In this document: in pieces, positions 24,258-44,370 of the stretch
Layout: every line of letters starts with the position of its first letter
How positions within the stretch are numbered: the stretch's first letter is position 1
NCBI RefSeq assembly: GCF_030652235.1
Contig: NZ_JAUSBA010000033.1
Location: forward strand, 1-64,000
Direction of reading: 5' to 3'
DNA from: Cypionkella sp.
GTDB taxonomy: Bacteria; Pseudomonadota; Alphaproteobacteria; Rhodobacterales; Rhodobacteraceae
Length of the DNA stretch: 64,000 bases
Translations under genes and position numbers: made by a program
The notes under the pieces: model-generated
Told to the model about the DNA's origin: nothing
Database searches by the model: none
The model's input: the letters and a program-made list of their open reading frames with translations, nothing else

Positions 24258-24506
24258 GAGCACAGAGGATGATCCAAACCGTGCGTGCCCGCTATCTTGT
24301 GCCTGCGCCATAGCCGGGCCAAACCCACGACGCCTCTGGGAGCATTTCTTGACTAGGCAGGAATGGGCGCGTGTAACCCATTGATTTATAAATGCCGAAA
24401 AAGCGCCACGCGTGGACACGCCCACACCGCGCCGCCACACTTGAATTATTCCTCCCAAGCGACATACTCCTACCAGTCCAACCTCCTCGACCGGAGTGTC
24501 CCCCCG

Positions 24507-25454: not shown

Positions 25455-25499
25455 GCCCGCCCAATCTGGGCCACTTCGATGTAAGTTCCCCCCCTGACC

Positions 25500-25517
25500 T
25501 GTCGCATCCTTGCGACA
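25500..25517. promoter_or_regulatory. Palindromic operator candidate upstream of aldB
   Basis: TGTCGCA-TCCT-TGCGACA is a perfect 7-bp inverted repeat, 107 bases before the aldehyde dehydrogenase start and 46 bases after the regulator stop. It resembles the symmetrical sites bound by Fis-type HTH domains of AcoR-like proteins. No -24/-12 (GG-N10-GC type) sigma-54 promoter was found between it and the gene, in keeping with the missing AAA+ domain. Confidence 0.55.
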
Positions 25518-25623
25518 ACTTCCCCCAGCATCGCTTTCCCCCCGGCTGACACAAGCCGCCCTAAAGCGCAGCCTAAGTCCAGTGCCGCGAGGAGGCGGCC
25601 GCACAGTCTGGGAGGACTTAGCA

Positions 25624-27141
25624 ATGAATATGGTGGAACATTTCCGCACCTCTAAATCGCCATTCAAGGCGACCTACGGCAACTTTATCGGCGGCAAATG
25701 GGTGCCTGCCCAATCCGGCCGCACCTTCGACAACACCTCGCCGATCACCGGCGAAATAATCTGCAAAATCCCGCGCTCTGAGGCGGCGGATGTTGAGGCA
25801 GCCCTCGACGCCGCACACGCTGCCAAGACCGCTTGGGGCAATTCCTCGGTCGCCACCCGCGCGGTGATCCTGAACAAGATCGCCGACGTGATGGAGCAAA
25901 ACCTTGGCCTGCTGGCTTTGGCCGAGACATGGGACAACGGCAAGCCGATCCGCGAAACCACCTATGCCGATCTGCCCTTGGCCATCGACCACTTCCGCTA
26001 TTTCGCAGGCGCCATCCGCGCGCAGGAAGGCAGCCTGTCGGAAATCGACCACGACACCGTCGCCTACCACTTCCACGAACCCCTTGGCGTCGTTGGCCAG
26101 ATCATCCCGTGGAATTTCCCGCTGCTGATGGCGGTCTGGAAACTGGCCCCGGCGCTGGCCGCAGGCAACTGCGTGGTGCTGAAACCTGCCGAGCAAACCC
26201 CGGCCTCGATCCTGATCTTCGCCGAACTGATCGCCGATCTGCTGCCGCCCGGCGTGTTGAACATCGTCAATGGCTTCGGGCTTGAAGCAGGCAAACCGCT
26301 GGCCTCCTCCAACCGCATAGCCAAGATCGCCTTCACCGGCGAGACCACCACTGGCCGCCTGATCATGCAATACGCCAGCCAAAACCTGATCCCGGTCACG
26401 CTGGAACTGGGCGGCAAATCCCCCAATATCTTCTTCAAAGACGTCTGCGCCGAGGATGACGATTACTTCGACAAAGCCATCGAAGGCTTCGTCATGTTCG
26501 CGCTGAACCAGGGCGAGGTCTGCACCTGCCCCAGCCGCGCCCTGATCCACGAGTCGATCTACGATCAATTCATGGAAAAAGCCCTGAAACGTGTGGCCGC
26601 GATCACAGCAGGCGACCCGCTTGATCCCACCACGATGATCGGCGCGCAGGCTTCCAGCGAACAGCTTGAGAAAATCCTGTCCTACATGGACATCGGCAAA
26701 CAGGAAGGCGCACAAATTCTGGCAGGCGGTGCCCGGCGTGAGATGGAGGGTGGCCTTGCGGGCGGTTTCTACATGCAGCCCACCGTCTTCAAGGGCAACA
26801 ACAAGATGCGGGTGTTTCAGGAAGAAATCTTTGGCCCGGTGGTTTCGGTCACCACCTTCAAGGATGACGACGAGGCGCTTTCGATTGCCAATGACACGCT
26901 CTACGGTCTGGGCGCTGGGGTGTGGAGCCGTTCGGCCAACACCTGCTACCGCTTTGGCCGTGCGGTTCAAGCAGGCCGGGTTTGGACCAACTGCTACCAC
27001 GCCTATCCCGCCCATGCGGCCTTCGGCGGCTATAAGCAGTCGGGCATCGGGCGCGAAAACCACAAGATGATGCTGGACCACTACCAGCAGACGAAGAATA
27101 TGTTGGTCAGCTACTCTCCCAAGAAGCTAGGCTTCTTCTGA
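25624..27141 (+). CDS. aldB: NAD-dependent aldehyde dehydrogenase (AldB/ExaC type)
   Basis: Oxidises aldehydes, most likely acetaldehyde, to the acid in the cytoplasm. The 505 aa start at [11 protein letters not shown], with GGAGG upstream. It has [10 protein letters not shown], general base Glu in LELGGKSP, the nucleophile in [11 protein letters not shown] and the C-terminal [12 protein letters not shown] typical of AldB. The trio AcoR-like regulator, AldB/ExaC and DUF779 recurs in alpha- and betaproteobacteria in ethanol or acetoin metabolism (established gene neighbourhood). A second acetaldehyde-type enzyme, ALDH16, is at 12404. Confidence 0.93.
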
Positions 27142-27192
27142 TCAACAGGGCGCGAGGTTCGCCTTGCGCCCACATTTTACCGGGAGGCTTCT

Positions 27193-27534
27193 ATGACCGA
27201 AATTCTCGACAAAGTCACTGCCACGCCCGCGGCCTTGCAGCTGCTGGCCGAGATCGTCGCCGACCACGGCCCGGTGATGTTTCACCAATCGGGCGGCTGC
27301 TGTGATGGCTCGTCGCCGATGTGCTACCCGGTGGGGGATTTCCTGTTGGGCGACCGCGATGTCAAACTGGGCGAAATTGGTGGGATGCCGTTCTATATCT
27401 CGGGCAGCCAGTATGAACTGTGGAAGCACACTGATCTGATCATTGATGTCGTCAAGGGCCGCGGCGGGATGTTCAGTTTAGACAATGGCCGTGAGCAAAG
27501 GTTTTTGACACGGTCCGAGGTCTGCGCGATTTGA
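27193..27534 (+). CDS. DUF779 protein
   Basis: Small conserved protein of 113 aa, cytoplasmic, function unknown. It starts at MTEILDKVTATP after GGGAGG. The region MFHQSGGCCDGSSPMCYP carries a Cys-rich signature (CC-x5-C) that could bind metal or protect an enzyme thiol. It is almost always next to AldB/ExaC-type aldehyde dehydrogenases, as here (51 bases downstream), so a supporting role for that enzyme is likely. A strong terminator follows 8 bases after the stop. Confidence 0.88.
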   Translation: MTEILDKVTATPAALQLLAEIVADHGPVMFHQSGGCCDGSSPMCYPVGDFLLGDRDVKLGEIGGMPFYISGSQYELWKHTDLIIDVVKGRGGMFSLDNGREQRFLTRSEVCAI

Positions 27535-27541: not shown

Positions 27542-27566
27542 AAGGTCCCAACTCGGGACCTTTTTT
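27542..27566 (+). terminator. Intrinsic terminator after DUF779 gene
   Basis: AAGGTCCC-AACTC-GGGACCTT followed by a T run: an 8-bp stem with a U tract. The same hairpin, loop included, ends ilvE on the other strand at 58408-58432. Confidence 0.92.
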
Positions 27567-27768: not shown

Positions 27769-29427
27769 ATGCAAAACGGCGGGCAGATACTGGTTTCCTC
27801 TTTGGTGGCCTTGGGCGCATCCAAGGCCTTTGGCGTGCCCGGCGAAAGCTATCTCGCGGTTCTGGACGCCCTGCACGACACCCCAGGCCAGCTTGATTTC
27901 ATCCTGTGCCGCAACGAAGGCGGTGCGGCGTTCATGGCCTCGGCCTACGGCAAGCTGACTGGAATCCCCGGCATTTGCATGGTCACACGTGGGCCGGGGG
28001 CGACCAATGCGTCGATCGGCGTGCACACCGCGATGCAGGATTCATCGCCGATGATCCTGTTTGTCGGCCAAGTCGGCACCGATATGAAGGGGCGCGAGGC
28101 GTTTCAGGAACTCGACTACCGCGCGGTATTCGGCACGATGGCGAAATGGGCGGTCGAGATTGATCGGGTTGAGCGTATCCCGGAAATTCTGGCGCGGGCT
28201 TGGGTGACGGCCACCACAGGCCGCCCCGGCCCGGTGGTGATCGCGCTGCCAGAGGATATGTTGACAAGCCTGACCGATACCCCGGCGCTGACCGCTCCCG
28301 CGCGTGTTGCAGAACCCGCACCCGCGCCCGAAACCGTTGCCGAAACGCTGGCCCTTCTGGCCGCAGCCTCGCGCCCGTTGATCCTGATGGGCGGCACCAA
28401 CTGGACGGATACAGGCCGCACCGCCTTGCAGCATTTCGCCGAATCCTCCGACATTCCCGTGCTGGCGGCGTTTCGCTTCCAAGACCAGTTCGACAACTTC
28501 TCGCCCGTCTTTACAGGCGAGGCTGGCGTCGGGATGCTGCCCCATGCCAAAGCCCTGATCCGCAACGCCGATGTGATCCTTGCGATCAACGTCCGGTTTG
28601 GTGAAATGACAACCGACGGCTATACGCTGCTTTCCGTCCCGAACCCCGTGCAGCATTTGATCCATGTGCATGGCTCGGATCGCGAGATTGGCAAGATTTA
28701 TCAACCGATCTTGGGCATCCACTCCGGCCCCAACGCCTTCGCCCGCGCCCTGACTTCGGTGCAAGGCGCATGGGCGGATTGGCGCAGCAAAGCCCGCACC
28801 GCCTATGACGCCAGCTTCACCACCCCCGCCCAGCCTTCCCCGGTGGATATGGCCGCAGTCACCGCCCATCTGCGCGACATTTTGCCGGAAGATGTGATCC
28901 TGACCAACGGGGCGGGCAATTTTACCGTCTGGCCGAATAAATTTTTCAAATTCGGAAAAAATGCCCGTCTGCTCGCGCCACAATCGGGTGCGATGGGTTA
29001 CGGTGTGCCCGCCGCGATTGCCGCCAGGGTGGCATACCCTGCCCGCCGCGTGGTCTGCTTTGCCGGAGATGGCGATTTCCAGATGAACTGTCAGGAACTC
29101 GCCACCGCGATGCAAGCAGGCGCTCAGCCGATCATTCTGATCATAAACAACGGCATTTACGGCACCATTCGCGCGCATCAGGAACGCCATTATCCGGCGC
29201 GGGTGTCGGGGACGACGATGCTGAACCCCGACTTTTCCGCCCTCGCGCGCGCCTATGGTTTTCACGCCGAACGGGTGGAGCGCACCGAAGATTTTGCCGC
29301 CGCCTTCGCCCGGGCTTTGGCCTCGGGCACCGGTGCCGTGCTGGATCTGAACGTTTCGCCCGAAGCCATCACGCCGCACCAAACCCTGTCGCAACTGCGC
29401 GCCGCAGCGCAGGCGGCGCAGGCATGA
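27769..29427 (+). CDS. Thiamine-diphosphate-dependent enzyme (decarboxylase/synthase family)
   Basis: 552-aa ThDP enzyme of the acetolactate synthase/benzoylformate decarboxylase family. I start it at MQNGGQILVSSL, with AAGGGG about 8 bases upstream; an ATG 15 bases earlier is possible. The catalytic Glu is in CRNEGGAAFMA (residue 50), and the ThDP/Mg motif is GDGDFQMN followed by NNGIYGT. No partner regulatory subunit is present, so branched-chain amino acid synthesis is unlikely. It opens a nine-gene run and overlaps hyuA by 4 bases. Decarboxylation of a 2-keto acid made by the aminotransferase or FAD enzyme is one reasonable guess. Confidence 0.85.
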   Translation: MQNGGQILVSSLVALGASKAFGVPGESYLAVLDALHDTPGQLDFILCRNEGGAAFMASAYGKLTGIPGICMVTRGPGATNASIGVHTAMQDSSPMILFVGQVGTDMKGREAFQELDYRAVFGTMAKWAVEIDRVERIPEILARAWVTATTGRPGPVVIALPEDMLTSLTDTPALTAPARVAEPAPAPETVAETLALLAAASRPLILMGGTNWTDTGRTALQHFAESSDIPVLAAFRFQDQFDNFSPVFTGEAGVGMLPHAKALIRNADVILAINVRFGEMTTDGYTLLSVPNPVQHLIHVHGSDREIGKIYQPILGIHSGPNAFARALTSVQGAWADWRSKARTAYDASFTTPAQPSPVDMAAVTAHLRDILPEDVILTNGAGNFTVWPNKFFKFGKNARLLAPQSGAMGYGVPAAIAARVAYPARRVVCFAGDGDFQMNCQELATAMQAGAQPIILIINNGIYGTIRAHQERHYPARVSGTTMLNPDFSALARAYGFHAERVERTEDFAAAFARALASGTGAVLDLNVSPEAITPHQTLSQLRAAAQAAQA

Positions 29428-31511
29428 ACGCGCCCATTCGCTTGGGCGCCGATATCGGCGGCACTTTCACCGATATCGCGCTGGACTGTGGCGGGCGGAT
29501 GTTCTCGACCAAGCTGCTGACCACCTACGCCGCCCCCGAGCAGGCGATTTTAGACGGCATCGACGTGGTGCTGGCCGAGGCTGAAATCACCCTTGCCGAT
29601 CTGGATATCGTCATCCACGGCACCACTTTGGCGACCAATGCGTTGATCGAACGCCGGGGCGCAAAGACGGCGTTTGTGACCACCGAAGGCTTTCGGGATG
29701 TCATTGAAATGCGCACGGAAAACCGCTTTGCGCAGTATGATCTGAACATGGTCCTGCCCAAGCCCTTGATCCCGCGCGAGGATCGGTTTGCCATCAAGGG
29801 CCGCATCGGCGCGCAGGGTCAGGAACTTGCCGCGTTGGATGAGGCGGCGCTTGAGACGCTCGCCGATCAGATCACAGCGCAGGGCTTTGGCGCTGTGGCG
29901 ATTGGCTTCATCCATTCCTACATGAACCCTGTGCACGAACAGCGCGCGCGCGAAATCATCGCTGCGAAAACCAGTGTTCCGATCAGCATTTCCAGCGAAG
30001 TTTCGCCACAGATGCGCGAGTTTGAACGGTTCAACACCGTCTGCGCCAATGCTTATGTCCGCCCGCAAATGGCGGATTATCTGACCCGCCTGCAAGCCCG
30101 CCTAAAAACCTTGGGTGCGACCTGCCCGGTGTTCATGATCCACTCGGGCGGTGGTTTGATTTCTGTGGAAACCGCTGCAGAATTCCCGGTGCGTTTGGTG
30201 GAAAGCGGGCCTGCGGGCGGTGCGATTTTCGCCGCCGACGTGGCGCAAAAGTTTGGCCTGCAAAAGGTCGTCAGCTATGACATGGGCGGCACCACGGCAA
30301 AGATTTGTCTGATCGAAGACTACGCCCCCAAAACCGCCCGCAGCTTTGAAGTCGCGCGCACCACCCGTTTCGCCAAAGGCTCGGGTATGCCGATTTCCAT
30401 TCCGGTGATCGAGATGATTGAAATCGGCGCGGGCGGCGGATCTCTGGCTTGGGTCGATGCGACGGGGCGCATTCAGACCGGCCCGGAATCGGCGGGGTCA
30501 GAGCCGGGGCCTGCCTGCTACCAGCGCGGCGGCAGCCGTCCGGCGATCACCGATGCCGATCTGGTGCTGGGCAAGCTGGATGCCGAAAACTTCGCAGGCG
30601 GCGCGATCAGGCTTTCCACCGAAGCCGCACAGACAGCGATTTTGCGCAATGTGGGCGACAAGCTGGGTCTTGCGGCGGAAGCCGCCGCCTTCGGGATCTG
30701 CGAAGTGGTCGATGAGAATATGGCCAATGCTGCCCGTGTTCACGCCGTGGAAAACGGCAAGAACATCTCCGACAACGTGATGATCGCTTTTGGCGGGGCA
30801 GCCCCCCTGCACGCGGCCCGTCTGTGCGAAAAATTGGGCATTGAACGCTGTCTGATCCCGGTTGGCGCGGGTGTCGGCTCGGCCATCGGTTTCCTGAAAG
30901 CGCCGTTTGGCTACGAGGCTTTGGCCTCGAACATCCTCGCCCTGTCGGCGTTCAACGCGGCGGCAGTGAACGCCCTGATCGCAGGCTTGAAAGCCACCGC
31001 GACAGGCTTTGTGCGCGCAGGCACCAGCGCCCCGATCCACAGCGAAGTCACCGCCTTCATGCGCTATGTCGGGCAGGGCTGGGAAATTCCCGTCACCCTG
31101 CCGGACCGTAATTTCACCGATGCCGACGCCGAAATGCTGCGCAGCAATTTCTGCGAAAACTACGCCCGGTTTTTTGGCCGCGCGATCGCAGGCCTCGACG
31201 GGCTGGAAATTGAAATCGTCACATGGTCGGTCAAGTCGCAAGATCAGCGCGCCAAACCCGTCCAAATCGCGCTTTCCTTGGGCGGGGCGCAGGCCCAGCA
31301 CAAGCTCTCACGCCCGGTGTTCGACCCGTCTCGGGGTGTGTTCGTAGCTACCGCGATCATAACCCGCAGCGACCTAACCCCCGGCGCGCGCGTCCAGGGC
31401 CCCGCGATAATCGTCGAACGCGAAACCTCCACCGTCGTCACCACCCCGTTCGATGTGGTGATGCAATCCGACGGCAGCCTGCTGCTGATCCGCAAGGGGG
31501 CCACAGCATGA
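29424..31511 (+). CDS. hyuA: Hydantoinase/oxoprolinase-family protein, subunit A
   Basis: ATP-dependent amidohydrolase or carboxylase subunit of the HyuA/N-methylhydantoinase A family, 695 aa. It has the N-terminal acetate-kinase-like phosphate motif GADIGGTFTDIAL, HGTTLATNALIERRGA, SGGGLIS and the second nucleotide motif SYDMGGTTAK, all typical. Partners with HyuB, encoded next with ATGA overlap. Known family members open hydantoins or 5-oxoproline, or carboxylate ketones (acetone, acetophenone); the exact substrate cannot be told. The start overlaps the ThDP gene stop by 4 bases. Confidence 0.9.
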   Translation: MNAPIRLGADIGGTFTDIALDCGGRMFSTKLLTTYAAPEQAILDGIDVVLAEAEITLADLDIVIHGTTLATNALIERRGAKTAFVTTEGFRDVIEMRTENRFAQYDLNMVLPKPLIPREDRFAIKGRIGAQGQELAALDEAALETLADQITAQGFGAVAIGFIHSYMNPVHEQRAREIIAAKTSVPISISSEVSPQMREFERFNTVCANAYVRPQMADYLTRLQARLKTLGATCPVFMIHSGGGLISVETAAEFPVRLVESGPAGGAIFAADVAQKFGLQKVVSYDMGGTTAKICLIEDYAPKTARSFEVARTTRFAKGSGMPISIPVIEMIEIGAGGGSLAWVDATGRIQTGPESAGSEPGPACYQRGGSRPAITDADLVLGKLDAENFAGGAIRLSTEAAQTAILRNVGDKLGLAAEAAAFGICEVVDENMANAARVHAVENGKNISDNVMIAFGGAAPLHAARLCEKLGIERCLIPVGAGVGSAIGFLKAPFGYEALASNILALSAFNAAAVNALIAGLKATATGFVRAGTSAPIHSEVTAFMRYVGQGWEIPVTLPDRNFTDADAEMLRSNFCENYARFFGRAIAGLDGLEIEIVTWSVKSQDQRAKPVQIALSLGGAQAQHKLSRPVFDPSRGVFVATAIITRSDLTPGARVQGPAIIVERETSTVVTTPFDVVMQSDGSLLLIRKGATA

Positions 31512-33130
31512 CTGATCCAACCCGCGATATTCGCATGCAAGTGATGTGGAACCGCCTGATTTCGGTGGTGGAAGAACAGGCGCTGACCCTGCTGCGCACC
31601 GCGTTTTCCACCTCTGTCCGCGAGGCCGGCGATCTGTCCGCCGGAGTCTTCGACCCACAGGGCCGGATGCTGGCGCAGGCGGTGACGGGAACCCCCGGCC
31701 ATGTCAACACCATGGCCGAGGCGGTGCTGCATTTCATCGCCGAAATTGGTCGCGAAAACATGTTCGCGGGCGATACCTATGTGACCAATGACCCGTGGAA
31801 GGGCACCGGGCATCTGCATGATATCACGATGGTTTCGCCCTCGTTCCTGGGCGATGATCTGGTCGGCTTCTTCGCCTGTACCGCCCATGTCGTCGATGTT
31901 GGTGGCCGTGGATTTGGTGCCGATGCCAAATCGGTCTATGAGGAAGGCATCCAGATCCCGATCATGAAATTCGCCGATCGCGGCGTGGTCAATGCCGACC
32001 TGATCCGCCTGATCCGCGCCAATGTGCGCGAGGCCAATCAGGTGGTCGGTGATTTCTACTCGCTCGCCGGCTGCAACGATGTCGGCCACCGCCGCCTGAT
32101 CGCGATGATGCAGGAAATCGGCCTGACCGCGCTCGATGCTTTAGCCGAGTTTATCTTCACCCGCACTTATGCCGCGACGTTGCAGCGCATCCGCGCGCTG
32201 CCGCAGGGCGCTTGGACGAACACGCTGCTGACCGATGGCTACGACACCCCCGTCAAATTGGCAGCCCAAGTGGCAATCAACGGCGATCAGGTCAACGTCG
32301 ATTTCGCAGGCTCTGACCCCGCCAGCCGCTATGGCATCAACGTGCCGATCATCTACACCAAAGCCTATGCCTGCTACGCGCTGAAATGTGTGATTGCGCC
32401 GGATATCCCGAACAACTGGGCCTCGCTGGCCCTGTTCACCATCTCGTCGCCGGAAAACATCCTGAACGCCCCGCGCCCTGCGCCTGTCGCGGTGCGGCAT
32501 GTCATCGGCCATCTGGTGCCCGATCTGGTGCTGGGCGCTTTGGCCAAAGCCCTGCCGGGGCAGGTGCTGGCCGAAGGCGCTGCGGCCCTGTGGAACATTC
32601 ACATGTCGGTGCGCCCTGTCACTGGCACCACAGGCAAGCGCGCCGAAATCCTGATGTTCAACTCGGGCGGCATGGGCGCACGTCCCACGCGCGACGGGTT
32701 GTCGGCCACCGCTTTCCCCTCCGGCGTGATGACGATGCCGATTGAGGCGACCGAGCATACCGGCCCCATCGTGGTCTGGCGCAAGGAACTGCGGCCCGAC
32801 TCGGGCGGCGATGGCCAGTATCGCGGCGGCCTCGGCCAGATCATCGAAATCGAACCCGCGCCGGGGTACGAATTCGACTTCTCGGCGATGTTTGATCGCG
32901 TCCACCACCCGGCAGCGGGCCGCGATGGCGGTGGGGCAGGGGCGGCGGGGATTGTGGCGCTGGACGATGGCACGCGGTTGAAGCCGAAAGGCTGGCAGCA
33001 TGTGCCGCAGGGGCGACGGTTGATCCTTCATCTTCCCGGCGGCGGCGGTTACGGTGCGCCAGAAATGCGTTCAGCGGATGCGCAGGCAGAGGATATTCTG
33101 CGCGGCTATGTGACAGGGAATAAACCATGA
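31508..33130 (+). CDS. hyuB: Hydantoinase B/oxoprolinase-family protein, subunit B
   Basis: Second subunit of the HyuAB-type enzyme, 540 aa, starting MTDPTRDIRMQVMWN at an ATG overlapping the hyuA stop. Typical motifs are REAGDLSAGVFDPQGRMLAQ, GHVNTMAEAV, FVTNDPW-type YVTNDPWKGTGHLHD and the Gly-rich ending LPGGGGYGAPEMR. Its length is normal for HyuB. It forms a complex with HyuA in the characterised enzymes. A longer frame upstream lies wholly inside hyuA and is not used. Confidence 0.9.
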   Translation: MTDPTRDIRMQVMWNRLISVVEEQALTLLRTAFSTSVREAGDLSAGVFDPQGRMLAQAVTGTPGHVNTMAEAVLHFIAEIGRENMFAGDTYVTNDPWKGTGHLHDITMVSPSFLGDDLVGFFACTAHVVDVGGRGFGADAKSVYEEGIQIPIMKFADRGVVNADLIRLIRANVREANQVVGDFYSLAGCNDVGHRRLIAMMQEIGLTALDALAEFIFTRTYAATLQRIRALPQGAWTNTLLTDGYDTPVKLAAQVAINGDQVNVDFAGSDPASRYGINVPIIYTKAYACYALKCVIAPDIPNNWASLALFTISSPENILNAPRPAPVAVRHVIGHLVPDLVLGALAKALPGQVLAEGAAALWNIHMSVRPVTGTTGKRAEILMFNSGGMGARPTRDGLSATAFPSGVMTMPIEATEHTGPIVVWRKELRPDSGGDGQYRGGLGQIIEIEPAPGYEFDFSAMFDRVHHPAAGRDGGGAGAAGIVALDDGTRLKPKGWQHVPQGRRLILHLPGGGGYGAPEMRSADAQAEDILRGYVTGNKP

Positions 33131-34332
33131 CTTACGTTGCAGATCGCTTGGCAGCGGTTAAACCCTCGGCCTCTATGGCGGTATCCATGGCCGCCAAGGC
33201 GTTGCGGGCGCAGGGCGTCGATGTGATCGACCTTGGCTTGGGCGAGCCGGATTTCCCAACCCCCCCCCACATCGTTGAGGCCGCCTTCAAGGCCGCCGCA
33301 GCGGGTGAAACCCTATATACCGCCTCCGCAGGCACCCCCACCCTGCGCGCTGCGATTGCCGAGAAATTCAAACGTGAGAACGGCCTAGACTACTTACAGG
33401 ATGAAATCACCGTCGCCAACGGTGCCAAGCAGATCATCTTCAACGCTCTGCTCGCCACCCTCAACCCCGGCGACGAAGCCATCTTGCCGACCCCCTATTT
33501 CGTGTCCTACCCCGAGATGGTCAAACTCCTTGGCGGCGTGCCAGTCACCCCCGCTTGCCCCGCTGACACAGGTTTCCGCCTGACGCCCGAAGTGCTGCAA
33601 GCCGCGATCACCCCCCGCACCAAATGGCTGTTTCTGAACATGCCCGGCAACCCTTCTGGTGCGGTATACGCGGCCACAGAATTGCAAGCCTTGGGCGCAG
33701 TCCTCGCCCAACACCCACACATCCTGATCCTGTCCGATGAAATCTACGAACACATCCTGTTCGATGGCCGCACCTTCGTAAGCTTCGGCGCAGCCTGCCC
33801 CGATCTTCGCGACCGCAGCCTGATCGTCAACGGCGTGGCGAAAGCCTACGCGATGACCGGCTGGCGTATAGGCTATGCCGCAGGCCCCGCACCGCTCATC
33901 AAAGCCATGAACACCGTGCAAAGCCAATCCGTCACCTCGGTCGCGGCCCCGATGCAAGCCGCCGCCCTCGCCGCCCTGAACGGCCCGCAAGACTGCATCG
34001 CCCAGTTCCGCGCAGCATTTGAGCGTCGCCGCGATCTCGTCGTCGCAGGCATCGCCACCATTCCCGGCCTCACCCTTGCCCCGCCCGAAGGCGCATTCTA
34101 CGCCTATATCGGTTGCGCCGCGCTGATCGGAAAACGCACGGCCAAAGGCGAAACCCTCACCGACGATACCGCCGTCACCCAATACCTGCTGACCAGTGGC
34201 GTCGCCGCCGTCCCCGGCACCGCCTATGGCCTCTCACCCTTCTTCCGCATCTCCACCGCCACCTCTGACGCGGTGTTGACCGAGGCCATCGCCCGCATCA
34301 AAGCAGCCGTCGCGGCGCTGGAGCCGAAATGA
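33127..34332 (+). CDS. PLP-dependent aminotransferase, class I (aspartate aminotransferase-like)
   Basis: Transfers an amino group between an amino acid and a 2-keto acid, using pyridoxal phosphate. The 401 aa include the substrate-binding LGLGEPDFPTP, NPSGAVY, the PLP-ring stretch ILSDEIYEHI, and the Schiff-base lysine in VNGVAKAYAMTGWRIGYAAG. Subgroup I-gamma/beta like. ATGA overlaps on both sides place it inside the ThDP-HyuAB unit, so it probably handles an intermediate there and is not the main aspartate enzyme. Confidence 0.88.
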   Translation: MTYVADRLAAVKPSASMAVSMAAKALRAQGVDVIDLGLGEPDFPTPPHIVEAAFKAAAAGETLYTASAGTPTLRAAIAEKFKRENGLDYLQDEITVANGAKQIIFNALLATLNPGDEAILPTPYFVSYPEMVKLLGGVPVTPACPADTGFRLTPEVLQAAITPRTKWLFLNMPGNPSGAVYAATELQALGAVLAQHPHILILSDEIYEHILFDGRTFVSFGAACPDLRDRSLIVNGVAKAYAMTGWRIGYAAGPAPLIKAMNTVQSQSVTSVAAPMQAAALAALNGPQDCIAQFRAAFERRRDLVVAGIATIPGLTLAPPEGAFYAYIGCAALIGKRTAKGETLTDDTAVTQYLLTSGVAAVPGTAYGLSPFFRISTATSDAVLTEAIARIKAAVAALEPK

Positions 34333-35144
34333 CCCCGCGCTTTGACTCCATCCTGATCACGGGTGCTGCGGGCCGCTTGGGCACCGAATTGCGCCGGGGT
34401 CTGGCCCCTTTGGCGCGCCGCCTGCGCCTCTCCGACATCACCGAAATCCAAAACCTGCAACCCAACGAAGACGCCATAATCTGCGATCTGGCGGACGAAT
34501 CCGCAATCCTATCCCTCACCCAAGGTGTTGATGCGATTGTGCATTTCGGCGGCATCCCGATGGAGCGCACCTGGGATAGCATCCTGAACGCCAACATTCG
34601 CGGCAGCTACCACATCTACGAAGGCGCGCGCAAAGCCGGCGTCAAGCGCGTGATCTACGCCTCCTCTGTCCACGCCATCGGCTATCATGATCTCGAATCC
34701 CAGATCGACGCCAACGCACCGCACCGCCCGGATGGCCTTTACGGCCTGTCGAAGTGCTTTGTCGAAGATCTGGGCCGCCTTTACTGGGACAAATTCGGCA
34801 TTGAAACCGCCGCCCTGCGCATCTTTTCCTCCTTCCCCGAACCACAAGACCGCCGCATGCTGTGGTCCTACCTGTCCTTCGACGATTGCATCCGCCTTGT
34901 CACCGCTGCCCTGACCGCCCCGCGCATAGGTTTCACCGTCAGTTTTGGGATGTCGGATAACACCGTCAAACCCGTCGACAACCGCCTTGCAGCCCACCTT
35001 GGCTATCAGGCAAAAGACACTTCCGAGCCCTTCCGCGCAGGCGTAGAAGCGCGCAGCGATCCGCCCGACCCAAAAGCGCCTGCGGTGCGGCATTTGGGCG
35101 GCTGGTTTGTAGATCTGGGACACCCCGACGAGGATACGAAATGA
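34329..35144 (+). CDS. NAD-dependent epimerase/dehydratase family, uronate dehydrogenase-like
   Basis: Rossmann-fold NAD(P)-dependent oxidoreductase of 271 aa, close in pattern to uronate dehydrogenase: ILITGAAGRLGTELRRGL, HFGGIPMERTWDSILNANIRGSYHIYEGAR, YASSVHAIGYH and the catalytic Y-x3-K in LYGLSKCFVED. True uronate dehydrogenases oxidise glucuronate or galacturonate, but no sugar-acid genes are nearby, so another hydroxy substrate is likely. The start and stop overlap the neighbours by 4 bases each. Confidence 0.82.
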   Translation: MTPRFDSILITGAAGRLGTELRRGLAPLARRLRLSDITEIQNLQPNEDAIICDLADESAILSLTQGVDAIVHFGGIPMERTWDSILNANIRGSYHIYEGARKAGVKRVIYASSVHAIGYHDLESQIDANAPHRPDGLYGLSKCFVEDLGRLYWDKFGIETAALRIFSSFPEPQDRRMLWSYLSFDDCIRLVTAALTAPRIGFTVSFGMSDNTVKPVDNRLAAHLGYQAKDTSEPFRAGVEARSDPPDPKAPAVRHLGGWFVDLGHPDEDTK

Positions 35145-36346
35145 AGACGCAGTATGATGTGGTGATTGTGGGCGGCGCAGTAATCGGCTCTGCCGTCGCG
35201 TATTTCCTGATGGCGAACCCCGATTTCGATGGATCGGTGTTGGTGGTGGAGCGTGACCCGACCTATGCCAAAGCCTCGACCTCGCTGTCGGCAGCCTCGA
35301 TCCGCACCCAGTTTTCCAACGCGATCAACGTCAAGATCAGCCAGTTCGGCTATCAATTCATCAAAGATTTCCCCGAAACCATGCAGGTCGGCGATGACAA
35401 GCCCGACCTGAATTTCCACTCGGGCGGCTACCTGTATCTTGCAGGCACCTCTGAGCAGGAACAAATCCTGCGCGAAAGCCACGAGGTGCAGCGCGCCTGC
35501 GGGGCTGATACCGTGCTGTGGGATCAAAACCAACTGGCGACAGCCTTTCCGCATCTGAATGTCGAAGACATCCGCCTCGCGTCCTACGGCCAATCCGGTG
35601 AAGGCTGGTTCAACAACACTGGCATTATGTCCGGGTTTCGCAACAAAGCCCGCGCCTTGGGGGCCGAAGTCATCTCCGATGAGGTCACAGCCATTGGCCG
35701 CACGGGCGATACGATAACCTCTGTCACCCTCAAATCCGGTGCCACTCTTCAGGCGGGCACGGTGGTAAACGCCTCTGGCCCCCGCGCCGCCCTCACAGCC
35801 CGCATGGCTGGCCTCGACGTGCCCGTAGAACCCCGCAAACGCACCCTGTTCGTGTTCGATTGCGCCAAAACCCCCGAAGGCAGCGCCACCGTCAACCAAG
35901 GCCGCCTGCCGCTGATGATCGACCCCTCCGGCGTATTCTGCCGCCCCGAAGGCCGCTTCTTTTTGACCGGAGCCGTCCCCATCGAAGATCCCGCCGTCGA
36001 TTGGGACGATTTCGAACCGCGTTATGAGGAATTCGAAGACATCATCTGGCCCGCGCTGGCCAACCGCGCGCAGGGGTTTGAGGCGATTAAAGTCGTCAAT
36101 CAATGGGCGGGTCACTACGATTTCAACACCCTCGATCATAACCTGATCGTCGGTCGCCACCCAGACGTGCGCAACTTTGTCTTCGCCAACGGCTTCTCGG
36201 GCCACGGGTTGCAACAAGGCCCTGCCGCAGGCCGTGCTGTGTCCGAACTGATCATCTACGGCGGCTACCGCACGCTGGATATGTCCGAAGTCGGCTTTGA
36301 GCGCATTGTTGAGAACCGCCCCTTCCTCGAAAAAGCGATCATTTAA
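35141..36346 (+). CDS. FAD-dependent oxidoreductase (DAO family)
   Basis: 401-aa flavoprotein of the D-amino-acid/sarcosine oxidase (DAO) superfamily. The FAD-binding GGAVIGSAVAYFLM and a glycine-rich region KASTSLSAASIRTQFS are N-terminal; the C-terminal FANGFSGHGLQQGPAAGRAVSELI completes the FAD site. The family oxidises secondary or D-amino acids. Sixth gene of the run, overlapping the previous by 4 bases. With an aminotransferase and HyuAB beside it, the pathway probably breaks down an amino-acid-derived compound. Confidence 0.87.
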   Translation: MKTQYDVVIVGGAVIGSAVAYFLMANPDFDGSVLVVERDPTYAKASTSLSAASIRTQFSNAINVKISQFGYQFIKDFPETMQVGDDKPDLNFHSGGYLYLAGTSEQEQILRESHEVQRACGADTVLWDQNQLATAFPHLNVEDIRLASYGQSGEGWFNNTGIMSGFRNKARALGAEVISDEVTAIGRTGDTITSVTLKSGATLQAGTVVNASGPRAALTARMAGLDVPVEPRKRTLFVFDCAKTPEGSATVNQGRLPLMIDPSGVFCRPEGRFFLTGAVPIEDPAVDWDDFEPRYEEFEDIIWPALANRAQGFEAIKVVNQWAGHYDFNTLDHNLIVGRHPDVRNFVFANGFSGHGLQQGPAAGRAVSELIIYGGYRTLDMSEVGFERIVENRPFLEKAII

Positions 36347-36350
36347 ACAA

Positions 36351-37262
36351 ATGAACCGCCCGCCGCGCCTTCCCCCCCTGAACGCGCTGCGGGTGTTTCA
36401 AACCGTGATGCGCCACCGCAGCTTTCGCGGTGCGGCGGATGAGCTGACCGTCACCCCGCAAGCCGTCAGCCAGCAAATCAAACTGTTGGAGGACACGCTC
36501 GCGCTGGAATTGTTCACCCGCCAAGGCCGCGCCATCGAGCCAACCGAGCAAGCCATCCTGCTCGCCCATTACATCCAAGCAGGTTTCGATGAATTTGCCG
36601 AAGGCATCCGTCGCGTCACCAAATTGGGCCAGCGCAACCGCATCAATCTGAACGCCAGCCCGTATTTTGCCACCCGCTTTCTGCTGGATCGCCTGTCAAA
36701 CTTTCGCGCCATCATGCCGGGGGCCGACCTGCGCTTGACCACCATGGTCGAACTGCCCGATTTCATCGCCGATGATGTCGACGTGGCGATCCAATGGGGC
36801 TTCGGCGCTTGGAGCAATCACGAGCAGACACTTCTACTACGAGACATCAAGGTGATCTGCTGCACCCCCGCCCTTGCCGCCAAACTCCATACCCCCAATG
36901 ATCTGCGCAACCTTCCCCTGCTGCACTCTGTCCTCGCCGACCTCTGGACCCCGGTTCTCGCCCATCTGAACGTCTCAGGTGCCCCGCAAGACAGCGCCTT
37001 GCGCTTCCAAGACGCCGCCACCATGCGCCGCGCGACTTTGGCGGGGCTGGGCGTCGGCCTGCTGTCCACCATCGACGCCGAAGAAGACCTCGCCTCGGGT
37101 AAACTGGTCGCCCCCTTTGGCCTCAACATCATGGCCGAGATGCCCCAAGCCCAGATCCCCGGCTTCTATCTGGTGCTGCCGAAAGCCCACCGCCGCGTCA
37201 AATCCATTGCCGCGTTTTGTGATTGGGTGGCGCACGAAAATTGGGCCATGCCCGTTGTTTAA
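36351..37262 (+). CDS. LysR-family regulator (GcvA-like)
   Basis: 303-aa LysR transcription factor with an N-terminal winged helix (LPPLNALRVFQTVMRHRSFRGAADELTV, shortened here, then QAVSQQIKLLE) and a C-terminal ligand-binding domain. The opening PPLNALR is characteristic of the GcvA/AmpR branch. It begins 4 bases after the FAD gene, so it is embedded in the operon it probably controls. The ATG follows TTTAAACAA without a clear Shine-Dalgarno; coupling to the gene before is likely. Confidence 0.88.
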   Translation: MNRPPRLPPLNALRVFQTVMRHRSFRGAADELTVTPQAVSQQIKLLEDTLALELFTRQGRAIEPTEQAILLAHYIQAGFDEFAEGIRRVTKLGQRNRINLNASPYFATRFLLDRLSNFRAIMPGADLRLTTMVELPDFIADDVDVAIQWGFGAWSNHEQTLLLRDIKVICCTPALAAKLHTPNDLRNLPLLHSVLADLWTPVLAHLNVSGAPQDSALRFQDAATMRRATLAGLGVGLLSTIDAEEDLASGKLVAPFGLNIMAEMPQAQIPGFYLVLPKAHRRVKSIAAFCDWVAHENWAMPVV

Positions 37263-37271
37263 GGAGCCGAC

Positions 37272-37988
37272 ATGGCACAAGCCCTCGTCACAGGCGCGAC
37301 CAGCGGCATAGGCCGCGCAATCGCCATAGCCTTGCACACCGCAGGCCATGAAGTCGTGGCTTTGGGCCGCAACGCGCAGGCCTTGGCCGAACTGTCCGCA
37401 CTGGGCCTGCAAACCCGGCAGCTTGATCTGACCGACCCGGCGGGCCTTGCCACCCTGGCCGACCTTACCCCCGATATTCTGGTCAATAACGCAGGCCTAA
37501 TGCCGCCCTTGGGCAATTTCTGCGACGCCGACCCCGCCGACATGGATCAAGCGATCAACACCAACTTGCGCGCGCCTCTCGCCCTGACCCGCGCCATAGC
37601 CCCCGGAATGCGCGCGCGCGGCCACGGCCATATCTTCTTCACCGGATCGACCGCAGGCCACGCCCCCTTCGCCAATCTGGCGGTCTATTGCGCCACCAAA
37701 GCGGCCATCGGCGGCTTCGCCCAAGCCCTGCGGCTCGACATGGCCCCGCACAACGTCCGCGTCACCGAAATCGTCGCGGGGCGGGTGGAAACCAGCCTTT
37801 ACAACGCCCTGCTTCCGGCCGAGGCCCGTGCGGCGATGTACGCAGGCAACGCCGCCGTACAGCCCGAAGACGTGGCCGCGATGCTGCTGGCGGTGCTCGC
37901 CCTGCCGCAATCCGTCGATGTCGCGCGGTTTGATATTCTTCCCACCTATCAAGGGGTCGCCACAGGCACCCCAAAGAAAGAGGCTTAA
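37272..37988 (+). CDS. Short-chain dehydrogenase/reductase (YdfG-like)
   Basis: NAD(P)-dependent SDR of 238 aa. It has the cofactor motif GATSGIGRAIA, NNAG at residue ~72 and the catalytic Y-x3-K as YCATKAA. The patterns after the active site (RVTEIVAGRVETSLYNALL) fit the YdfG 3-hydroxy acid dehydrogenase group. Preceded by AAGGAG close to the ATG; 9 bases after the LysR gene and 1 base before the next SDR, so part of the same unit. Substrate unknown. Confidence 0.85.
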   Translation: MAQALVTGATSGIGRAIAIALHTAGHEVVALGRNAQALAELSALGLQTRQLDLTDPAGLATLADLTPDILVNNAGLMPPLGNFCDADPADMDQAINTNLRAPLALTRAIAPGMRARGHGHIFFTGSTAGHAPFANLAVYCATKAAIGGFAQALRLDMAPHNVRVTEIVAGRVETSLYNALLPAEARAAMYAGNAAVQPEDVAAMLLAVLALPQSVDVARFDILPTYQGVATGTPKKEA

Positions 37989-37989
37989 G

Positions 37990-38739
37990 ATGAAGGGTTT
38001 ATCGGTTGTAATCATCGGCGGCGGCGCAGGCTTGGGCGCGCTGCTGGCCGAAATGGCGGTGGCCGAGGGGGCTTCCGCCTTGGGCATCATCGACCTGAAC
38101 GCCAGCGCCGCCGAAGCCGCCTTGGCCCCCGCCCGCGCCGCTGGCATCCCCCACGCCTTCGCTGCCTGCGACATCCGCACCTCCGATGCCGCCCACGCTG
38201 CCTTCGCCCAAGTCGCCGCCAGTTTGGGCCGTGTCGATACCCTGATCAACTCTGCCGCGATCTATCCGCGCAAACCGATCCTGGAAATCAGCGATGCCGA
38301 TTGGGATGCCTCAAACGCCATCAACGTCAAAGGCACCTATCACATGATGGTCGCCGCCATCCGCCAGATGAAGCGCCAAGACCAGATCGGCCATATCCGC
38401 GGCCGCATCGTCAACATCACCTCGGTCGATGCCTTCAAAGCCCACCCGCAAAACGCCCATTATGCGGCGACCAAAGCGGCGGTGGTGTCCTTGACCAAAA
38501 GCATGGCGCAAGAGGTTGCCCCCGATGGCATCCTCGTCAACTCCGTCGCTCCCGCAGGTATGGCCACCGAAAAAGCCCGCGAGTCGGGTTTCTTAGCCGA
38601 GCTTGCCAAAGCCAGTCCGCTGGGGCGTGGCGGAGAGCCACGCGAAATGGCTGAATGGGTGCTGATGGCAGGCGGTCCGCGCAACACCTATATGACCGGC
38701 GAGAACATCATCGTCTCGGGCGGCTATATCTACGCTTGA
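37990..38739 (+). CDS. Short-chain dehydrogenase/reductase
   Basis: Second SDR of the run, 249 aa, starting MKGLSVVIIGGGAGLG one base after the previous stop. The cofactor loop GGGAGLGALLAE, SAA in place of NNAG (LINSAAIYP) and the catalytic HYAATKAAVVS are visible. The C-terminus GENIIVSGGYIYA is normal. Its stop lies only 5 bases from the stop of the convergent ProC-like gene, so the two operons meet tail to tail with no room for a private terminator. Confidence 0.85.
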   Translation: MKGLSVVIIGGGAGLGALLAEMAVAEGASALGIIDLNASAAEAALAPARAAGIPHAFAACDIRTSDAAHAAFAQVAASLGRVDTLINSAAIYPRKPILEISDADWDASNAINVKGTYHMMVAAIRQMKRQDQIGHIRGRIVNITSVDAFKAHPQNAHYAATKAAVVSLTKSMAQEVAPDGILVNSVAPAGMATEKARESGFLAELAKASPLGRGGEPREMAEWVLMAGGPRNTYMTGENIIVSGGYIYA

Positions 38740-38744: not shown

Positions 38745-39509
38745 TTACGCCCAACCCTGCACGCGGTTGAAGGCTGCCGTCAAAGCGGCCTCCATCGCCG
38801 CCCCGCCGCCACCTTGCACGAAGCGTTGAAAAATCATTTCGTTTAACCCGCCCTTGGTTGAATGATCTTCCCGCAACTGCGCCAACGCGGCGGGCTTTTC
38901 GCGCAACACATCGCCCAAACTGCCAAACAATCCGCGCAAATACCGCGCCGCATCCGCCTCGGAAAGCCCCTGCGCCACCATCCAGGCGCAGGCCTTCTCC
39001 AGCAAACCAAAATAGCTGCCCATCAAGGCACTTCCCGCCGCATAGGCATCATAGGCCGCTAGGTCATGTACCGGCAAAGCCGTGCCCAAAGCCGCGAAAA
39101 TCTGCATCGCGGCGGGCTGTGGCGGGAACACCGGGGTCACCCCCTGATGCCGTTCCACAAACGGCAAAGGGATCGCGCGGCAGATATCCTGCGCCCCGGT
39201 CCAATCGGCCAAGGTCGCGATATGCAGCCCCGCGATCAGGCTGACCACCGGGCGCGTGGGCGGGATAGCCAAAGGCCGGATCACCGCCTCGGCCACCTGC
39301 GGACGCACGGCAAGGATCAGCAAATCGCACGCATCGACCACCGCCTGATTGCTTGCGGCCACCGTCACCCGCGGCAACAAAGCCAGTTCCGCCGCCACCG
39401 CCTCATTGCGCGAAGACAGCACAATCGGCCACTCCGCCAGCGCCGAGGCCTTCAGCCCCCGCACCATATGCGCAGTGATCGTGCCGGTGCCAATAAACCC
39501 TAACCGCAT
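38745..39509 (-). CDS. Pyrroline-5-carboxylate reductase-family protein
   Basis: NAD(P)H-dependent reductase of the ProC family, 254 aa, start MRLGFIGTGTITAHMV (GGGGGA immediately upstream). It has the Rossmann motif GFIGTGTIT and the ProC dimer region TKGGLNEMIFQRF in place of the usual TPGG-T. The surrounding hydroxyproline-type genes suggest it reduces a pyrroline carboxylate other than P5C, or works in the reverse direction. Divergence from housekeeping ProC at the C-terminal motif supports a specialised role. Last gene of a six-gene minus-strand cluster. Confidence 0.8.
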   Translation of the reverse strand: MRLGFIGTGTITAHMVRGLKASALAEWPIVLSSRNEAVAAELALLPRVTVAASNQAVVDACDLLILAVRPQVAEAVIRPLAIPPTRPVVSLIAGLHIATLADWTGAQDICRAIPLPFVERHQGVTPVFPPQPAAMQIFAALGTALPVHDLAAYDAYAAGSALMGSYFGLLEKACAWMVAQGLSEADAARYLRGLFGSLGDVLREKPAALAQLREDHSTKGGLNEMIFQRFVQGGGGAAMEAALTAAFNRVQGWA

Positions 39510-39525
39510 CATTCCCCCGTAAGCC

Positions 39526-40278
39526 CTAAGCGACCGCCTGCGCCCCGGTGATTTCCACCAAAGACCCGCACATGAACGCCGCCTCATCCGAGGCCAGAAA
39601 CGCCACCAAGGCCGCGACTTCCTCTGGCCGTCCAATCCGGCCATAAGGCACCATCCGGTCCAGATCGGCAATCGTGCGACCCGCGCGTTTCACCCCCGCC
39701 TCCAGCATCGGCGTGTGAATTTCACCGGGGCAGACCGCATTGACGCGTACTTTCTGCGCTGCATAGTCCCGCGCAAGGTTCTGGGTGAAACTTGCCACCG
39801 CCGCTTTGGTGACGTTATAGGCGATGTGGTTTGGCGCGGGGTGCAAACCCCATTGTGAAGCGGTGTTCACAATCGCCCCACCCCCTGCCGCGATCATATG
39901 CGGCAAGGCGGCTTGGCACAGATGAAACATCGCGTCGATGTTGATGGCAAAGGAAATATTCCAATCCTCCGCCGTCAGCGACAGCAGGTTGCCGCGTCGA
40001 TTTACCCCGGCATTGTTGCACAACACATCAATCCGCGCCTCAACCGCCATCACATCGGCAATCACTGCGCGACACCCCTCAACCGTGCCAATATCCGCCG
40101 CAAAGCTGCGCGCGCGACCGCCAGCGCCCCGGATGTCAGCAGCGGTTTTCTCGGCCCCTTCGGCATTCACATCCGTCACCACCACCAACGCCCGTTCAGA
40201 CGCAAACCGCTGGCAAATCGCCGAGCCAATGCCGCCGGCCGCCCCCGTCACCACCACCACTTTGTCTTGAAACCGCAT
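39526..40278 (-). CDS. Short-chain dehydrogenase/reductase
   Basis: Classical SDR of 250 aa: cofactor loop VVVTGAAGGIGSAI, NNAG, and catalytic Ser/Tyr/Lys in NTASQWG and AYNVTKAAV. An acidic residue after the second strand (VVVTDVN) points to NAD preference. In the hydroxyproline-type cluster it could oxidise a ring or open-chain hydroxyl group. It lies 16 bases upstream of the ProC-like gene. Confidence 0.85.
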   Translation of the reverse strand: MRFQDKVVVVTGAAGGIGSAICQRFASERALVVVTDVNAEGAEKTAADIRGAGGRARSFAADIGTVEGCRAVIADVMAVEARIDVLCNNAGVNRRGNLLSLTAEDWNISFAINIDAMFHLCQAALPHMIAAGGGAIVNTASQWGLHPAPNHIAYNVTKAAVASFTQNLARDYAAQKVRVNAVCPGEIHTPMLEAGVKRAGRTIADLDRMVPYGRIGRPEEVAALVAFLASDEAAFMCGSLVEITGAQAVA

Positions 40279-40287
40279 CCCGTCCCC

Positions 40288-42083: not shown

Positions 42084-42093
42084 GTTCAGCCTT

Positions 42094-43326: not shown

Positions 43327-43329
43327 GGC

Positions 43330-44214: not shown

Positions 44215-44283
44215 AAGACATCCTTTGCAAACGAATCGAGACCGCAATCGATGCGCGGCGCTGGCCCAATTCATGGCGACAGC

Positions 44284-44322: not shown

Positions 44323-44370
44323 CAAGCCCCTGAAACGCTATCGCTCAACAAACCACCGAAGGCTGCCCCA

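Follow-up and report, generated by a model that had tools for sequence, protein, structure and literature searches.

A nine-gene HyuAB operon of Cypionkella sp. as a candidate system for the catabolism of a hydroxylated cyclic imino acid

The window analyzed here is a stretch of 64,000 nucleotides from Cypionkella sp. (RefSeq assembly GCF_030652235.1, contig NZ_JAUSBA010000033.1, positions 1 to 64,000), whose genome comprises 4.8 Mb over 76 contigs. At 27,769–38,739 it carries nine consecutive genes on the forward strand, described in the original prediction as one operon serving a pathway that could not be named. They code for a thiamine diphosphate (ThDP)-dependent enzyme (27,769–29,427, 552 amino acids); HyuA and HyuB, of the ATP-dependent lactamase/hydantoinase alpha and beta subunit families (29,424–31,511, 695 amino acids, and 31,508–33,130, 540 amino acids); a class I, aspartate-aminotransferase-like enzyme (33,127–34,332, 401 amino acids); an enzyme of the uronate dehydrogenase family (UDH; 34,329–35,144, 271 amino acids) with altered substrate-recognition positions; a DAO-family flavoenzyme nearest to the sarcosine oxidase group (35,141–36,346, 401 amino acids); a GcvA-like LysR regulator (36,351–37,262, 303 amino acids; PRK11139 245 bits, below the cut-off of 288); and two short-chain dehydrogenases (SDRs), SDR8 (37,272–37,988, 238 amino acids) and SDR9 (37,990–38,739, 249 amino acids). 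The corresponding Pfam families are, in gene order, TPP_enzyme N/M/C, Hydant_A_N with Hydantoinase_A, Hydantoinase_B, Aminotran_1_2, Epimerase, DAO, LysR and, twice, adh_short.

Coordinates and junctions proved to be exactly as predicted. Four-base ATGA overlaps join ThDP to HyuA, HyuA to HyuB, HyuB to the aminotransferase, the aminotransferase to UDH and UDH to the flavoenzyme, and the later gaps measure 4, 9 and 1 bases. It is also true that the unit contains no transporter. A terminator-like hairpin on the same strand (27,542–27,562, eight pairs and a T-run) separates the operon from an upstream aldehyde dehydrogenase (ALDH)/DUF779 gene pair, although the scan for such sites in this region was weak (6 sites versus 11.1 in shuffles). 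Co-transcription with this pair was rejected, given the hairpin between them and the finding that the pair adjoins the operon at only 3 of the 114 related loci described below (L048, L080, L081). Together with a GAF/Fis-type regulator gene, the pair forms a separate forward-strand group at 24,363–27,534.

HyuA and HyuB match the domains of the ATP-dependent hydantoinase/oxoprolinase superfamily (Hydant_A_N 164, Hydantoinase_A 266 and Hydantoinase_B 479 bits), and the nearest solved relatives of HyuA are an N-methylhydantoinase (7hk5, 1.5e-106) and a 5-oxoprolinase (6yra, 4e-95). Two more specific identities were rejected: caprolactamase CapAB (HyuA 459.2 and HyuB 176.5 bits, cut-off 1000 each) and acetophenone carboxylase (HyuA 249.6 against 1500 for ApcC and 157.7 against 1250 for ApcA; HyuB 62.5 against 1500 for ApcD). 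The aminotransferase scores 521 bits with PRK06107, below the cut-off of 617; aspartate aminotransferases B and A are its nearest solved relatives (3e-135 and 3e-129), and it is probably a transaminase of dicarboxylic amino acids. The ThDP enzyme reaches 774.8 bits with NCBIfam NF006052 (PRK08199; cut-off 539), the sole model above its cut-off among the 25 of 54 matches listed; the name of that model, "thiamine pyrophosphate protein", states no function. Its nearest solved relatives are acetohydroxyacid synthases (about 1e-68). Acetolactate synthase itself was rejected (TIGR00118, 354.9 versus a cut-off of 538), the scores with the other acetolactate synthase models listed also falling short of their cut-offs. 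From family and context, a putative 2-oxo-(hydroxy)dicarboxylate decarboxylase seems the best description.

The flavoenzyme (DAO, 181.8 bits) is nearest among solved proteins to 1y56 chain B, "sarcosine oxidase" (3e-24), and then to 3vqr and 3axb, each a "putative oxidoreductase" (2e-14). These entries probably represent archaeal proline dehydrogenases. Sarcosine oxidase is a secondary-amine enzyme, and the flavoenzyme is a candidate cyclic imino acid dehydrogenase.

The fifth protein (P0005) had been called uronate-dehydrogenase-like, a label that the comparison with solved structures bears out: its four nearest sequences, 6mfh, 3ay3, 3rft and 3rfx (4e-79 to 5e-70; 3ay3 4.7e-77, 3rft 2.7e-71), are uronate dehydrogenase entries, the file of 3ay3 naming only an "NAD-dependent epimerase/dehydratase"; the best match after these four reaches just 1e-13. 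By sequence relatedness it belongs to the uronate dehydrogenase family (EC 1.1.1.203). According to a published account of the Agrobacterium enzyme, Ser110 and His112 contact the substrate, Asn111 stabilizes the carboxyl group, Ser74 faces the C2 hydroxyl and Gly163 is conserved (PMC4476818). In the window UDH, Ser110 and His112 are kept, and the uronate dehydrogenase residues are missing at all three of the other recognition positions, where Pro replaces Ser74, Val replaces Asn111 and Phe replaces Gly163 (Agrobacterium numbering). The same source reports an Oceanicola granulosus enzyme, UdhOg, in which Ile occupies position 111 and Phe position 163. Its Km for glucuronate is 64 mM and its kcat/Km is 0.10 per s per mM; the Agrobacterium enzyme in Tris buffer gives 0.20 mM and 829 per s per mM, and the authors suspected a different natural substrate for UdhOg (PMC4476818).

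To place the operon among its relatives, HyuB was used as the query. A tblastn search of plasmids at E 1e-60 gave 251 records, 118 of 295 genomes of the family were positive at E 1e-100, and the best 80 of 580 confirmed HyuB stretches were kept from a scan of named genomes. Reference proteins were mapped onto 114 loci, 34 from plasmids and family genomes (L034–L067) and 80 from named genomes (L080–L159). Removal of three duplicate pairs left 111 loci; near relatives were kept, and many loci end at contig ends. Unless stated otherwise, a partner was counted as present at E 1e-12, 35% coverage and 40% identity. Among the matches listed, the closest named relatives by HyuB are Cypionkella (91–92%).

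Linkage of the operon genes is strongly conserved in these genomes; its lack had been named as what would refute the original prediction. Over the 111 loci, UDH is present at 80, the flavoenzyme at 68, both together at 66, the aminotransferase at 52, the ThDP enzyme at 45, SDR9 at 41, SDR8 at 38 and KdgD, an enzyme of the oxidative uronate pathway, at 8. The full order ThDP-HyuA-HyuB-aminotransferase-UDH-flavoenzyme recurs on the HyuB strand at 17 loci, and such sharing of a six-enzyme order exceeds chance; the gaps between matched stretches are 0–49 bases, barring one of 197. Nine further loci (Rhizobium, Sinorhizobium, Pararhizobium and Pseudomonas) have the ThDP gene last, after HyuA-HyuB-aminotransferase-UDH-flavoenzyme. 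HyuA and HyuB stand with UDH and the flavoenzyme, without aminotransferase or ThDP gene, at 29 loci (HyuA-HyuB-UDH-flavoenzyme at 16 and HyuA-HyuB-flavoenzyme-UDH at 13). HyuA-HyuB stands by itself at 17 loci, ThDP-HyuA-HyuB-aminotransferase-UDH lacks the flavoenzyme on the HyuB strand at 10, and the remaining orders are rarer. From these gene-order counts we conclude that HyuA-HyuB-UDH-flavoenzyme is the fixed centre and that the aminotransferase and ThDP genes are an extension. Amino-acid-type solute-binding proteins (Aap, HisJ or LivK type; at least 40% identity to one of five reference types) occur at 38 of the 114 loci, and electron transfer flavoprotein genes at 6 (L040, L063, L129, L136, L149 and L150).

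The recognition positions of UDH were read in 143 rows: 105 linked to HyuB, whose match lies on that very stretch (for 20 short rows, in its vicinity); 36 unlinked, with no family HyuB place near by; and 2 with the flavoenzyme but without HyuB. The family rows are 60 of 150 places, hand-picked rather than random; the linked set includes some repeats of a single locus, and in two of its rows (L247, L250) HyuB is present only as fragments. All 105 linked rows retain Ser110, His112, the Tyr of YxxxK and the Arg of the RML motif. Position 111 is Val or Ile in 101 of them, the four exceptions all being Pseudomonas; Ser74 is replaced in 100, and at position 163 Gly is lost from 82 rows and retained by 22, with a gap in one. 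The 36 unlinked rows keep Asn111 in 26, Gly163 in 26 and Ser74 in 24 cases, and the two rows with the flavoenzyme alone read Val/Phe and Asn/Phe at 111 and 163. A tree of the 138 distinct rows (100 linked, 38 not) places 25 unlinked Asn/Gly rows in one clade with support 99 and zero linked rows inside; of the 10 unlinked Val/Ile rows, seven fall among the linked rows and three form a clade of their own. Because of this clade structure, the aligned sequences identify the residue shift as a clade marker rather than the result of many independent events.

UdhOg, a very poor uronate dehydrogenase in the published work, carries substitutions of the kinds seen in the HyuAB-linked UDHs, and its exact Ile/Phe pair is absent from the linked rows compared. 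To judge from these residues, its true substrate may be that of the present pathway. At L247 and L250 the ThDP and UDH genes are present (at L250 also the flavoenzyme gene), and no long open frame remains at the HyuA, HyuB and aminotransferase sites; these operons are apparently decayed. Where UDH and the flavoenzyme are paired without HyuAB (L248, L251), the nine open reading frames scanned contain no clear alternative ring-opening enzyme.

The ThDP, KdgD and HpaI families all act on 2-oxo acids. At the 111 loci, the ThDP enzyme (45 loci), KdgD (8) and an HpaI-type aldolase of at least 50% identity (9) are never found side by side. The chance probability of zero ThDP-KdgD overlap, uncorrected for kinship, is 0.05 for the 80 named loci and 0.01 for all 114, so that their mutual exclusion is suggestive, not strong. 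At 35% identity, the ThDP enzyme and an HpaI relative are found together at 1 of 80 and 2 of 114 loci (L054, L090), outside the flavoenzyme-UDH interval. The KdgD of L061 scores 412.6 against a cut-off of 374, and the next gene is an ALDH whose best model is α-ketoglutarate semialdehyde (KGSA) dehydrogenase (544.7, below the cut-off of 770); the L128 aldolase matches HpaI best (301 against 369). The pairing of KdgD with UDH that marks the oxidative uronate pathway is not seen in the window, and none of the 45 ThDP loci carries KdgD. The dihydrodipicolinate synthase (DHDPS)-family gene of the window matches only dapA at E 1e-40 (184.6 against 206), the rest of the window genome not having been searched for KdgD. 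A KdgD-type locus of Rhizobium phaseoli (L133, 734–13,454) has a DAO flavoenzyme, a PALP enzyme, UDH, an ALDH and, replacing the aminotransferase, a D-serine-dehydratase-like protein; its UDH is 46% identical to that of the window, with Ser74 and Gly163 kept and Val at 111. The genome of L115 (G300), a sister of the KdgD-type genomes, has a window-type UDH (66% identical) on another contig (C8:200,265–201,071).

D-2-Hydroxyglutarate dehydrogenases (D-2-HGDHs; identity of at least 60% for the YdiJ type and at least 50% for the GlcD type) accompany 14 of the 45 ThDP loci and none of the other 66 (Fisher p 8e-7, not corrected for kinship; Mesorhizobium accounts for 5 of the 14), at distances of 52 bases to 8.2 kb from the operon. 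The YdiJ type is found in rhizobia (L035, L037, L040, L067 and L109), and the one tested, that of L037, scores 1450 against the D-2-HGDH cut-off of 1350. The GlcD type is found in Paracoccus, Pararhodobacter, Mesorhizobium, Paraburkholderia and one further genome; that of L034 is nearest to 3pm9, a "putative oxidoreductase" (1e-102), then to mitochondrial D-2-HGDH (2e-72) and D-lactate dehydrogenase (2e-47). An ALDH (at least 50% identity) or a succinate semialdehyde dehydrogenase (SSADH; at least 60%) stands at 12 ThDP loci and one other, the KdgD locus L061. The ALDHs near the operon score best with 2,5-dioxovalerate/KGSA dehydrogenase models, and in Pseudomonas with SSADH.

We propose, with a probability of roughly 0.4, that the operon serves the catabolism of a hydroxylated cyclic imino acid, the likeliest candidate being a six-membered-ring acid akin to 5-hydroxypipecolate; reactions and substrate are read from enzyme families and gene context. 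Because the UDH relative and the sarcosine-oxidase-type flavoenzyme are the most constant partners of HyuAB, their partnership suggests that the lactam arises intracellularly, out of a cyclic imino acid. The flavoenzyme would oxidize the ring N-C6 bond to an imine, whose hydrated form, a cyclic hemiaminal, would be converted with NAD to a delta-lactam by the UDH relative. Uronate dehydrogenase oxidizes the C1 hydroxyl of a six-membered ring with a carboxylate at C5, and hydrated 5-hydroxypiperideine carboxylate would match this uronic acid pyranose pattern with nitrogen in place of the ring oxygen. The product of such an oxidation would be a lactam; to open it, in contrast to a lactone, an ATP-driven hydrolase such as HyuAB would be required, and the product of opening would here be 2-amino-5-hydroxyadipate. 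Transamination would give 5-hydroxy-2-oxoadipate, which the ThDP enzyme would decarboxylate to 2-hydroxy-5-oxopentanoate; an ALDH would form 2-hydroxyglutarate and a D-2-HGDH 2-oxoglutarate. Adjustment of hydroxyl stereochemistry is a possible role for the two SDRs. D-2-HGDH and ALDH are what this ThDP branch, and not a KdgD or HpaI branch, should need; a 5-hydroxyl acid would end in 2-hydroxyglutarate through it.

An acid with 4,5-hydroxyls would, on transamination, give exactly the KdgD substrate, and were a 3-hydroxyl present as well, the same compound would arise through a beta-eliminating dehydratase like the one at L133. A bolder reading is a wider, modular "aza-uronate" pathway, in which flavoenzyme and UDH would make lactams from hydroxylated pipecolic acids, as nitrogen mimics of uronic acids, HyuAB would open them and the 2-oxo acid would be routed by the ThDP decarboxylase to D-2-hydroxyglutarate, by KdgD to KGSA, or to an HpaI-type aldolase. 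KdgD would then receive its normal substrate from 4,5-dihydroxypipecolate, or from trihydroxypipecolate with the R. phaseoli D-serine-dehydratase-like enzyme, and the UDH branch would be a new cyclic-hemiaminal (lactam-forming) dehydrogenase. We hold this extended scheme only tentatively and consider it somewhat unlikely as a whole. The expectation that all KdgD-type genomes would have UDH and the flavoenzyme at another place failed for UDH: at E 1e-30 a homologue is present in 3 of the 7 genomes searched and in 2 of the 6 with KdgD. An R. phaseoli-type flavoenzyme is present in one of seven KdgD-type or sister genomes, R. phaseoli itself, the window flavoenzyme not having been searched for there.

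Several observations weigh against the proposal. Four of the six genomes with KdgD (four of seven when the sister L115 is counted) contain no UDH homologue at E 1e-30, and HyuAB in those four must obtain its lactam otherwise; the aminotransferase is at only one of nine HpaI loci. The order ThDP-HyuA-HyuB-aminotransferase-UDH lacks the flavoenzyme on the HyuB strand at 10 of 111 loci, at least two of which (L050, L098) are cut by the end of the stretch, and HyuA-HyuB has no core partner at all at 40% identity at 17 loci, several cut by contig ends. Candidates for the last two steps occur at only 13 (ALDH) and 14 (D-2-HGDH) of the 111 loci and are not in the window operon; the best homologues in the window genome are 41–44% (D-2-HGDH) and 39–43% (KGSA-type ALDH) identical, and no YdiJ there reaches the cut-off. 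The KGSA-model scores of the ALDHs beside ThDP are all below NCBIfam cut-offs. Distant GlcD relatives (30–34%) lie at L083, which has ThDP, and at L087, L126 and L148, which lack it. The two SDRs are unexplained by the proposed route, no measured activity was found for these enzymes, and the same set would serve equally for a five-membered ring, with malate as the product.

The neighbourhood on the 3' side bears on the last point. A convergent, possibly related cluster on the reverse strand (38,745–44,325) ends five bases past the last stop codon of the operon, would itself serve a cyclic imino acid and codes for a pyrroline-5-carboxylate (P5C)-reductase-like protein, two SDRs, a proline racemase family protein, a D-amino acid dehydrogenase-like DAO protein and the DHDPS-family protein. 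The P5C-reductase-like gene scores 263 bits with PRK06476 (cut-off 254); the racemase, DAO and DHDPS genes each fall short of the named-model cut-offs. Assignment of the racemase as 4-hydroxyproline epimerase or trans-3-hydroxyproline dehydratase was rejected (T3LHypDht 332/550, TransHydProDhtase 225.5/540, PRK13971 209.5/376, HdxProlEpimProt 153.6/450). The P5C-reductase-like, SDR and racemase genes also adjoin the operon in Cypionkella psychrotolerans (L081, plus DAO) and a congener (G247, L048). The racemase/DAO pair that flanks the operon in L052 differs from the pair in the window cluster.

These neighbours would suit a proline-ring substrate and speak against the six-membered ring, as does the pair flanking the operon in L052 (G178). 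A hydroxyproline or dihydroxyproline would be converted to a hydroxy-5-oxoproline lactam, opened to hydroxyglutamate, then transaminated and decarboxylated to malate semialdehyde, and would end as malate. The Pseudomonas SSADH is above its subfamily cut-off (691 versus 646), and because D-2-HGDHs can also bind D-malate (PMC7801405), the dehydrogenases are compatible with this shorter route. We nevertheless judge it unlikely. Both dehydrogenase types belong to families named for D-2-hydroxyglutarate, and outside Pseudomonas the ALDHs beside ThDP score best with C5 semialdehyde models; moreover, uronate dehydrogenases act on six-membered rings, and KdgD, which stands in the place of ThDP, requires a C6 keto-diacid. 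The original prediction had sketched ring opening by HyuAB, oxidation or transamination and then ThDP decarboxylation, and the comparative evidence favours ring opening, both oxidation and transamination, and decarboxylation; the suggested hydantoin, 5-oxoproline or creatinine-like nutrient is less likely, and degradation of these compounds was set aside because UDH and the flavoenzyme are the constant partners. If the nutrient were itself a lactam, hydantoin or cyclic imide, HyuAB would act first and the flavoenzyme, UDH and SDRs on the ring-opened product. The solved relatives of HyuA fit this, as do the seven of eight KdgD loci that have HyuAB (with the aminotransferase) and no UDH at 40% identity, four of six such genomes having no homologue at E 1e-30. 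A member of the M20 family, which is that of carbamoyl amino acid hydrolases, also lies about 9 kb from HyuB in L063. A uronate dehydrogenase relative, though, needs a cyclic hemiacetal-like substrate, and the annotated records viewed show no carbamoylase within the conserved core, no search having been aimed at carbamoylase models; this reading, too, we regard as improbable.

Two further readings appear still less probable. In an opine-like scheme, which we consider very unlikely, the flavoenzyme would cleave an N-substituted amino acid, UDH would oxidize the freed uronic sugar and HyuAB would open a pyroglutamate-type product. UDH is by name a uronate enzyme, many HyuB-bearing plasmids are rhizobial, and the DAO superfamily includes opine dehydrogenases (PMC4575208). 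Yet the linked UDHs have lost Asn111 and Ser74, on glucuronate the similarly altered UdhOg falls about 8000-fold short of the Agrobacterium enzyme (PMC4476818), and D-2-HGDH and the ThDP enzyme would be left unexplained. The operon might, finally, be a loose assembly in which the ThDP enzyme is an acetolactate synthase-like carboligase of a biosynthetic route, as its resemblance to acetohydroxyacid synthases among solved structures would allow; its scores far below the acetolactate synthase cut-offs, and the amino-acid importers and degradative dehydrogenases that flank many loci, make this the least credible reading.

Other gene groups were seen beside the operon. At L051/L088, L054, L085 and L090 it adjoins a second module with a paralogue of the flavoenzyme (50–54% identical), a shikimate-dehydrogenase-domain protein, an SDR and a FadR-type regulator. 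Elsewhere in the window lie osmoregulated periplasmic glucan genes (19,421–24,182, forward strand; MdoG family, glycosyltransferase, OpgC) and histidine utilization genes (46,246–52,880; UTRA regulator, an HutF-type and another amidohydrolase, aromatic amino acid lyase, urocanase).

The view that no known route uses this gene set agrees with our search: no published pathway with it was found in the open-licence literature, covered mostly as titles and starts of abstracts, which is not proof of absence. A homarine lead gave nothing usable there. Caprolactam degradation resembles the operon in that lactam opening is followed by transamination. The system of Pseudomonas jessenii also uses a HyuA/HyuB-family ATP-dependent lactamase, CapAB (PMC8453981, PMC6061476). 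However, HyuA and HyuB of the operon are far below the CapA and CapB cut-offs, and the lactam is a nutrient there and a proposed intermediate here. The caprolactam route is not known to involve a UDH or a ThDP enzyme. Degradation of trans-4-hydroxyproline (HypE, HypO, HypD and KGSA dehydrogenase) shares the oxidation of a cyclic imino acid by a flavoenzyme, a proline-racemase-family neighbour and 2-oxoglutarate as end product; its imine is deaminated directly by a DHDPS-family enzyme, with no known lactam. The pipecolate/lysine route likewise leads from a cyclic imino acid through a 2-aminoadipate-type acid to 2-oxoadipate and D-2-hydroxyglutarate, but piperideine-6-carboxylate opens to a semialdehyde that is oxidized by an ALDH, and no lactam, ATP or ThDP decarboxylase is known to take part. 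The oxidative uronate pathway (uronate dehydrogenase, KdgD, KGSA dehydrogenase; PMC4476818, PMC5114784) shares the UDH family and, at the eight loci with KdgD beside HyuAB, a second enzyme. The proposed route differs from it in the nitrogen ring and ATP-dependent lactam opening, the aminotransferase, the ThDP enzyme replacing KdgD in the window type, and the changed recognition residues of UDH.

The proposed pathway would be a variant of known enzyme chemistry. If it is correct, it would assign a function to a conserved operon of rhizobia, Paracoccus, Mesorhizobium, Paraburkholderia and Pseudomonas, and a role to NF006052, a ThDP family with no function in its name. It may also explain the puzzle of UdhOg, a "uronate dehydrogenase" with a Km near 60 mM for which, in the published account, another substrate was suspected (PMC4476818). 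The substrate class would be hydroxypipecolic acids and iminosugar acids, compounds found in legumes, whose bacterial breakdown we did not find described in the open-licence literature and for which this operon would provide a route.

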